This document shows, one piece after another, positions 40,398 to 43,286 of a DNA stretch of 51,238 nucleotides. The notes under the pieces were generated by a model. The model saw nothing but the letters and a program-made list of their open reading frames with translations, had not been told where the DNA came from and ran no database searches. Positions within the stretch are counted from its first letter, which is position 1; the number at the start of each line of letters is the position of its first letter. A program made the translations under genes and the position numbers. Source of the stretch: Candidatus Pyrohabitans sp. JdFR-17 (lineage in GTDB: Archaea > Hydrothermarchaeota > Hydrothermarchaeia > Hydrothermarchaeales > BMS3B); assembly GCA_002011115.2 (NCBI GenBank), contig MTME02000090.1, forward strand, positions 1 to 51,238, read 5' to 3'.

Positions 40398-40472
40398 TAC
40401 ATTTTTTCATATCATAACATATCAGAGAATAAATCAGCAAAACAAAATTTCATAATTTTTCAGATTTCAGCG

Positions 40473-40486
40473 AAAAAATATAAATA
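40473..40486 (+). promoter_or_regulatory. Putative TATA-box of the multiheme cytochrome gene
   Basis: AAAAAATATAAATA, ~120 nt upstream of the start, implying a ~95-nt 5' UTR. Confidence 0.5.
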
Positions 40487-40523
40487 TGTCTTTTTTGTTA
40501 TTGAATATCGGCATTTTTCGCCA

Positions 40524-40570
40524 GAACGTGTGGCTTTTGCCACATGTTCACCTCCTTCTACGAAAGGAGG
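40524..40570 (+). promoter_or_regulatory. Structured 5' UTR: 11-bp stem-loop followed by anti-SD hairpin
   Basis: GAACGTGTGGC-TTTT-GCCACATGTTC (40524-40549) then CCTCCTT-CTACGA-AAGGAGG (40551-40570). TCACCTC (40548-40554) is complementary to the RBS GAGGTGA (40593-40599). Confidence 0.6.
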
Positions 40571-40606
40571 CTGTCTGTCTGAAGAGTTTTGAGAGGTGAT
40601 ATGAGA

Positions 40607-41965
40607 ATGAAAAAATGGGTGGGCATAGCCTTGGCTGTGCTGCTGGTGCTGAGCCTGTTCAGCGGATGCACAAAGAAGGAAGCCTCAGCACCTGCGGCGG
40701 CAACGGCTTCTAAGTCAGAGAAAAAAGAGACCCACGTGACCGTTGAGACAAAGGTGGTCTCAGCAGATATTTCAGACCTTATCAAGAAGTACAAAGAGGA
40801 GAACGAGGCTACAGCGAAGGTTCTAAAGAAGCTTGGTGCAACAGATGAGGAAATTAAGAAAATCCTGCCCGACGACTCAAAGTGCGCCACCTGCCATCCA
40901 CAACACTTCTATGAGTGGACAAAGTCGAAGCACTATAACCCAGTGGTTTTCAGCTACTTCGCCTTCCAGAGCTACGCCTCTGACTTCAAGAAAAATCTTG
41001 ACAGGTTCCCAAAAGCTAAAGAGTGGGACGCCTGCTTCAGAGGGTGTCACGGTCCGACGATGAAGTACGCCAGCGACAAGGTTAAAGACAGGCTGTACGA
41101 GGCATTCCTCAGCGATGACGTTGAAAACCTCCGCGGTATTCGCGTAGGGTGCATAACCTGTCACTCAATGATGGTGGATGGAGAGCTCGGGGAAACCTAC
41201 TACGGAACAATCGAGGACCCCGAAGCGCCGCACGGTGCAAAGTTCTCGCGAGAGATGTCCACAAGCGAGTTCTGCAAGCCGTGTCACAGCAAGCTGAAGA
41301 TAGACTTTGTTACACCAGAGGTGAAAGAGGCGCTCAAGATGGGTGACTATGTGCGCTGTGGCTTGAACTATGATGCCTGGGCTCAGAGCGATGTGAGGAG
41401 AGAGAAGGAGTGTCAGTACTGCCATATGCAGACCATTGATGAACCCGCTGCTGAAGGAGGCAAGATGCGTATAAGGCACAGGCACGACTTCCCTGGACCT
41501 AACTCGCCTGCGATGATGGTCCGTGCAGCGAGAGTGAACCTGGATGCTCACAAAATGGGCGATGTGGTGCACGTCAAGATTGAGGTCAAAAACTTAGCGG
41601 AGCACATTCTGCCGGACGGATGCATCCTCGCAGCGAAGCCGGTGCTGCACGTGTATGCATACGATGAGAAGGGCAACCAGATATTCTATACCAACGAGAC
41701 CTGGAAGGTTGGAAGCTATGACTACCAGGGCAAGTTCACAGGCAGCGTATGGAAAGTGTGGGAATACGACACCAGTGTGATGTTCAACCCCGGCAAATGG
41801 TACAACTTTGAGTACAAGATACCCTACGGCAACGCTAAGAAGGTGACAGTAAAGGCGGTGATGAAGTACCACGACAGCAAGAAGAAGGAGAAGAGACCCA
41901 TCGATCCAGTGCCCAGTGCGACCCTGAGAATGAGCAATGAGGCTGTTGCCGAAGTGGAGCTGTAG
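40607..41965 (+). CDS. Multiheme c-type cytochrome lipoprotein (cytochrome c554-like start)
   Basis: Lipobox LSLFSGC; heme motifs CATCH, CITCH, CKPCH, CQYCH plus CFRGCH (CX3CH); SKHYNPV region. Start at the ATG 7 nt after GAGGTGA. Confidence 0.88.
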   Translation: MKKWVGIALAVLLVLSLFSGCTKKEASAPAAATASKSEKKETHVTVETKVVSADISDLIKKYKEENEATAKVLKKLGATDEEIKKILPDDSKCATCHPQHFYEWTKSKHYNPVVFSYFAFQSYASDFKKNLDRFPKAKEWDACFRGCHGPTMKYASDKVKDRLYEAFLSDDVENLRGIRVGCITCHSMMVDGELGETYYGTIEDPEAPHGAKFSREMSTSEFCKPCHSKLKIDFVTPEVKEALKMGDYVRCGLNYDAWAQSDVRREKECQYCHMQTIDEPAAEGGKMRIRHRHDFPGPNSPAMMVRAARVNLDAHKMGDVVHVKIEVKNLAEHILPDGCILAAKPVLHVYAYDEKGNQIFYTNETWKVGSYDYQGKFTGSVWKVWEYDTSVMFNPGKWYNFEYKIPYGNAKKVTVKAVMKYHDSKKKEKRPIDPVPSATLRMSNEAVAEVEL

Positions 41966-42009: not shown

Positions 42010-42168
42010 ATGGAGAGGAACACATTAATATACATTGGATTGGTCGTGGTGATTTTATTAGCGATTGTAGCCTGGCTGGTGCTTGGTGGTGGCTCTGCGC
42101 CTGATGCAGCAACAGCAGAAACCCCAGTAATAACTACCGTTCCACCACACAAGCTCGGATGTGGATGA
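42010..42168 (+). CDS. 52-aa single-pass membrane mini-protein
   Basis: SD TTGAGGTGACGACGGTATG; MERNTLIYIGLVVVILLAIVAWLVLGGGSAPDAATAETPVITTVPPHKLGCG. Absent from the supplied ORF track (too short). Confidence 0.7.
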   Translation: MERNTLIYIGLVVVILLAIVAWLVLGGGSAPDAATAETPVITTVPPHKLGCG

Positions 42169-42359
42169 TATACTTATAAATTTTTAATTTTTTTATTATT
42201 TACGCGTTTAAACGCGATATTACGCATATATGACAATACCGCATATGGGGGAATTGGACATTTTTCACCAAGGAACGTTTTCAATGATTAAGTATAAATA
42301 TAATAAATTTATAATAGAAAAATAATAGAAAAAAACAATAAGATAAGGAGGTGGACGAT

Positions 42360-42951: not shown

Positions 42952-42987
42952 GAGCATGCGGCAAAGCCGCATGTTCACCTCCTTTTT
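42952..42987 (+). terminator. 11-bp stem-loop plus T-run after nosL; second copy of the 40524 stem-loop/anti-SD motif
   Basis: GAGCATGCGGC-AAA-GCCGCATGTTC followed by ACCTCCTTTTT. Confidence 0.6.
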
Positions 42988-43071
42988 GTTTGGAAAGAAT
43001 TATATTTTTTTGCTGTTTTTTAAATAATGGAAAAATGCAACTATCAATTTACTGAAATCAAAAAGTGTAAG

Positions 43072-43095
43072 TAGCCCCGGGTGGATTCAGAACGC
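43072..43095 (-). repeat. Degenerate copy of the tRNA-Gln 3' end (T-arm plus 3' acceptor)
   Basis: Minus strand GTTCTGAATCCACCCGGGGCTA versus tRNA-Gln GTTCGAATCCGCCCGGGGCTA (one insertion, one substitution). Confidence 0.65.
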
Positions 43096-43213: not shown

Positions 43214-43286
43214 TAGCCCCGGGCGGATTCGAACCGCCGTCGCAGGATCCAGAGTCCCGCATGATTGACCGCTACACCACGGGGCT
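43214..43286 (-). tRNA. tRNA-Gln (anticodon CTG)
   Basis: AGCCCCG...CGGGGCT-A acceptor; anticodon stem CGGGA/TCCTG with loop CTCTGGA; T-arm GGCGG-TTCGAAT-CCGCC. Confidence 0.92.

Follow-up and report, generated by a model that had tools for sequence, protein, structure and literature searches.

Does the 5′ leader of an archaeal multiheme cytochrome gene control translation of that gene, and through which pairing? Few natural examples of archaeal gene control at the RNA level are on record; by 2021, experiments had established one natural riboswitch, for fluoride (PMC8241225). We analysed the window, a 51,238-nucleotide stretch of a ‘Candidatus Hydrothermarchaeota’ genome (G000), alongside comparison genomes labelled G001, G003, G004 and so on. 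A first-pass annotation had proposed a riboswitch-like OFF/ON platform ahead of the cytochrome gene, in which TCACCTC masks the Shine-Dalgarno (SD) sequence GAGGTGA (OFF), or the overlapping CCTCCTT forms a short hairpin with AAGGAGG and leaves the SD free (ON; here hairpin B). All four segments lie at the positions first given for them (Table 1), and the leader probably serves to control translation. A leader of this kind, short, bearing a copy of the tail with which the ribosome binds mRNA and retained whatever cytochrome gene lies behind it, would offer a compact and directly testable case of translational control in archaea, here in a lineage that has no cultured members.

The cytochrome locus and its promoter

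The closest named relative is ‘Candidatus Pyrohabitans jungbluthii’ JdFR-16 (G001), with a cytochrome identity of 92–93%. Fluids from that source reached 62 °C (PMC6775978), so folds were also computed at 55–75 °C. The cytochrome matches NF040886 at E 2.4e-28, under the curated cut-off, and is flanked by two DUF7343 genes upstream and nosL downstream. G001 has an ATG only at the equivalent of 40607 and none at the equivalent of 40601. The stretch around the TATA box (40463–40487) is identical at 21 of 25 positions in three genomes, and the box lies slightly downstream of the position first proposed for it (~40473). From the usual archaeal spacing to the TATA box, transcription would start near 40509, giving a predicted leader of about 98–100 nt to the ATG, a little longer than the ~95 nt originally estimated.

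The cytochrome and nosL promoters (40465–40487 and 42279–42301) have in common the motif TTTCA(R)YGA-N-TATAAATAT, 78% identical over 23 nt, and similar elements are present in G001, G003 and G004, which suggests co-regulation of the two genes at the DNA level. Between them (42010–42170) lies a short membrane-anchored open reading frame of ~52 amino acids (MERNTLIYIGLVVVILL...PPHKLGCG), found in G001 too and lacking a Pfam match.

Table 1 Features of the cytochrome leader and its surroundings in the window
Feature	Sequence	Position	Strand	Remarks
TATA box, cytochrome promoter	TATAAATA	40479–40486	+	from sequence
Hairpin A	GAACGTGTGGC-TTTT-GCCACATGTTC	40524–40549	+	11 bp, one G-U pair; overlooked by the first-pass annotation
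Anti-SD copy	TTCACCTCCTT	40547–40557	+	matches the G001 16S 3′ tail GGATCACCTCCT; core ACCTC
Proposed OFF segment	TCACCTC	40548–40554		complement of GAGGTGA
Hairpin B (proposed ON helix)	CCTCCTT/AAGGAGG	40551–40570 (arms 40551–40557 and 40564–40570)	+	3′ arm is the SD of another gene in G004
SD of the cytochrome gene	GAGGTGA	40593–40599	+	start codon ATG 40607; spacing identical in G001
Multiheme c-type cytochrome lipoprotein, ExtKL-like		40607–41965	+	four CxxCH and one CxxxCH
Second module copy	GAGCATGCGGC-AAA-GCCGCATGTTC-ACCTCCTTTTT	42952–42988	+	directly after the nosL stop codon; terminator-like

A stable hairpin beside an anti-Shine-Dalgarno copy

The most stable and most conserved part of the leader is hairpin A, with a pairing probability of ~1 at 37 °C and a mean of 0.98 at 65 °C. 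The whole leader folds at -39 kcal/mol (z -4.1, more stable than 200 of 200 shuffles), mostly by virtue of this hairpin; the G004 leader has a z of -2.8. Abutting hairpin A is a 10-nt anti-Shine-Dalgarno (anti-SD) copy, UCACCUCCUU, that faces two SD-like sites. The 16S rRNA 3′ end was read from G001 (GGATCACCTCCT) and was not found in G000 or G004.

At least 7 nt of complementarity to the cytochrome ribosome-binding site occurred in 1.8–2.4% of dinucleotide shuffles of the leader, and this complement together with an overlapping 7-bp hairpin in 0.04%. Among SD-bearing genes of the window, 2 of 28 have an upstream SD complement of at least 7 nt, these SD-complement statistics covering the window rather than the whole genome. 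The two pairings depend on each other. The segment they share is an anti-SD copy, which will pair with anything SD-like, and both of its partners are of that kind, so finding the two together is less of a coincidence than it seems.

The mutually exclusive helices exist in both G000 and G001. The foot of hairpin A includes the first two bases (UC) of UCACCUC, so the OFF helix is limited to 5 bp unless hairpin A opens at that end. The predicted fold of G000 prefers the ON state, by ~5.4 kcal/mol at 37 °C and ~2 kcal/mol at 65 °C; in G001 the two states lie within ~0.4 kcal/mol at 37 °C, and with hairpin A left out the two helices are nearly equal in energy. At 37 °C the SD is predicted to be unpaired with a mean probability of 0.32 in G000, 0.13 in G001 and 0.78 in G004, the last falling to 0.59 at 65 °C.

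Conservation of the leader ahead of different genes

Besides G000, the leader was found only in G001 and G004. Across these three genomes, hairpin A plus ACCTC is identical in 30 of 31 columns, against 53% in the flanks (binomial p 7e-8); hairpin A alone accounts for 25 of 26, its single change falling in the loop, and identity is complete in ACCTC (5/5) and AAGGAGG (7/7) and low in the hairpin B loop (2/10). The idea of a structured leader with SD-masking potential thus held up, on both this conservation and the fold z-score.

The gene behind the leader differs between relatives. In G001 it is the counterpart of the G000 cytochrome and not of the G004 gene; in G004 that promoter and leader stand ahead of another gene, whose product carries a Tat signal and resembles split-Soret cytochrome c (NF047622, E 1.5e-43, under the curated cut-off; PF09719, over the cut-off). 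The only SD of the G004 gene, AAGGAGGT, is the AAGGAGG arm that had been assigned to the ON helix. Of this locus, G003 keeps only nosL and, next to it, the first DUF7343 gene, and it lacks the leader. What the analysis shows is that the leader is present and conserved, that its fold is predicted to be stable and that the gene downstream of it differs between relatives.

In all three leaders the anti-SD is complementary to the gene's own SD, over 7 nt in G000 and G001 (UCACCUC/GAGGUGA) and over 5 nt plus a G-U pair in G004 (ACCUC/GAGGU). Because AAGGAGG is the gene's own SD in G004, hairpin B has the opposite effect there: as modelled, it would mask the SD in G004, whereas in G000 it would free it. 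The ON/OFF logic is therefore not conserved, and the exclusive helices noted at the outset survive as structures, with a sign that reverses in G004. By sequence, the conserved features are hairpin A and an anti-SD facing the gene's SD. The column identities indicate selection for hairpin A, for the core of the anti-SD and for the first of the two SD-like sites, with the OFF/ON sign differing between genomes. No two-sided changes were seen among the three known copies of the leader.

A second copy behind nosL

A second copy of the module, present in four genomes (G000, G001, G003 and G004), follows nosL. Compared with the leader its 3′ arm is nearly alike and its anti-SD the same, with 19 nt shared at 95%. 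When leader and nosL copies were aligned, 75 of 75 cells paired, with one pair altered on both sides (U-A to C-G) and two others gaining or losing a G-U wobble in a way that suits plus-strand RNA only. Shuffle and slide controls favoured structure, the two-sided change counting as one event between two copy groups.

A covariance model run on 23 genomes of the class returned exactly the leader and nosL copies at E < 1e-7. No further copy of the module was found in these 23 genomes, the next-best hits being the copies' own opposite strands, antisense gene starts and background; a dispersed element family was ruled out on this result.

The nosL SD region AAGGAGGTGGAC (42345–42356) is itself complementary to the tail of the nosL 3′ hairpin (42973–42984) over 12 nt with one G-U. 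This complementarity spans 11–12 nt in G000 and at least 11 in G004, and contains mismatches in G001. Further downstream (43072–43095), a 24-nt piece is 83% identical to the end of a tRNA gene 142 nt away (43214–43286), possibly a tRNA remnant or an integration scar.

A proposed cis-acting anti-SD leader and its rivals

We propose, with a probability of about 0.42, that the element is a genus-restricted cis-acting anti-SD leader, working as a damper or gate on the translation of an electron-transport cytochrome. In this scheme hairpin A would form first and fix the anti-SD beside its targets; the anti-SD would pair in cis with a downstream SD-like sequence, either as hairpin B or directly with GAGGTGA, and this pairing would damp or gate translation initiation. 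In G004 the anti-SD would face the gene's only SD and could mask it; in G000 and G001 the SD-like arm belongs to hairpin B, and the second SD would be a further possible partner for the anti-SD. This reading draws on the conserved module, the stable folds, the complementarity to the gene's own SD in three of three leaders, the retention of the leader while the next cytochrome differs and the kept pairing of the nosL copy. Against it, only three leaders exist, the SD-masked state is minor in G000, the SD in G004 is predicted to be mostly open, and the palindrome could equally be a DNA site. We infer the acting form (RNA), the lowering of translation by pairing and any signal; no ligand is indicated for the leader.

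The main rival is a DNA operator, given that the palindrome lies a short way downstream of the predicted start, with regulator genes beside it. Here the 11-4-11 inverted repeat would be bound by a transcription regulator, perhaps either of the two winged-helix-type DUF7343 proteins encoded immediately upstream, and the SD pairing would be incidental. The near-perfect palindrome at about +15 to +40 of the predicted start fits an operator, as do the adjacent regulator genes in G000, G001 and G004 and the joint absence of the second DUF7343 gene and the leader from the G003 locus. Yet five genomes of the genus, regulator genes included, hold no further copy of the palindrome, with one locus per genome at up to three mismatches. 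Both asymmetries of the palindrome are G-U compatible in plus-strand RNA, a related copy lies at the 3′ end of a gene, nosL, and the anti-SD core and AAGGAGG are conserved although they lie outside the palindrome. The wobble-compatible asymmetries, the copy at a 3′ end and the conservation of ACCTC and AAGGAGG count slightly against an operator, which we regard as possible and on the unlikely side. That conservation of ACCTC and AAGGAGG beyond hairpin A, with an intervening loop that is not conserved, also weighs against a stability or processing hairpin, in which hairpin A guards the mRNA 5′ end or is left over from a 3′ end of the nosL type and the anti-SD is a passenger of little effect. 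We consider this unlikely, even though no SD pairing comes near hairpin A in stability and hairpin A shares its 3′ arm and tail with the nosL hairpin. The nosL hairpin was called as an intrinsic terminator and the leader hairpin was not; no T run follows hairpin A, which excludes a terminator or attenuator in the leader.

A ligand-binding translational riboswitch (for Cu, haem or Fe), as first suggested, is highly improbable. The downstream genes do encode redox proteins, and the exclusive helices come near to equal energy in G001 and when hairpin A is disregarded, but the ON state is strongly favoured in G000 and the sign of hairpin B is opposite in G004, its loop being unconserved. Rfam searches at gathering and permissive thresholds gave nothing relevant, the fold consists of two simple hairpins with no junction or other aptamer-like element, and no relative occurs outside the genus; the OFF/ON platform is not supported. 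Equally remote is the idea that the leader works in trans as an antisense RNA directed at the start region in the mRNA of a beta-propeller lipoprotein (G000:C95:22415-22436). The complementarity is exact over 22 nt (E 1.5e-4 in the genome) and spans 18–19 nt in G001 and G004, and the redox-related partner, a Cytochrom_D1-type propeller, adjoins thioredoxin and multiheme genes. Half of the match, however, is buried in the 11-bp hairpin A, which must open; the partner shows no changes matching those of the leader, and as a canonical SD-spacer-start it partly fits any anti-SD copy. Two lipoprotein gene starts in all (VAKPKTLA...; the one above and G000:C32:4026-4050) are exact or near-exact complements of 22 nt of the leader.

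Going beyond the cis-acting anti-SD leader, one may picture a genus-specific RNA module of hairpin and ribosome-tail mimic that sits in the 5′ leader where cytochrome genes are exchanged and again at the nosL 3′ end. By rivalling the anti-SD of the ribosome itself, it might coordinate translation across an electron-transport cluster, a role that we hold to be quite unlikely.

Two coding candidates were rejected. A small minus-strand open reading frame (ATG behind AGGTGAAC) is open in three genomes, is conserved only inside the hairpin and, on inspection of the sequence, has no obvious TATA box. For an upstream open reading frame behind AAGGAGG, neither G000 nor G001 offers a suitably spaced start codon.

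Relation to known systems

The leader resembles SD-masking riboswitch expression platforms, such as the Thermococcus kodakarensis fluoride riboswitch cited in PMC8241225, in that an anti-SD in a 5′ leader can pair with the SD and an alternative helix exists. It differs from them in having neither an aptamer domain nor an Rfam match, in being restricted to a genus and in an alternative helix whose sign is not conserved.

RNA thermometers are a known class that masks the SD with a hairpin, and hairpin B in G004 is similar in pairing the SD by a short helix that weakens with temperature. In contrast to thermometers, SD accessibility in the three leaders changes little and in no single direction over 37–75 °C, and no family match was obtained; a thermometer was ruled out for want of consistent SD opening.

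In haloarchaea, 5′ and 3′ untranslated regions cooperate in translational control, with 5′ stem-loops acting together with 3′ regions (PMC2636863); in this light the complementarity between the nosL tail and the SD of the same gene is of interest. The lineage is a different one, the pairing here is predicted, and the cytochrome module sits in a 5′ leader.

Split-Soret cytochrome leaders in other genomes

A leader class common to split-Soret cytochromes elsewhere was ruled out: the stems in G017 and G012 are their own, and the upstream region in G021 is plain AT-rich sequence. In G017, from another genus, the split-Soret cytochrome leader (L059 295-470) forms a closed structure of ~120 nt (z -3.5) and holds CCTCCTAT, an 8-nt complement of its own SD that arose in 0.8% of shuffles. 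In G012 (L060 1255-1360), a 16-bp stem enclosing CACCTCCTC closely follows a TATA-like sequence, ~130–220 nt ahead of the split-Soret gene.
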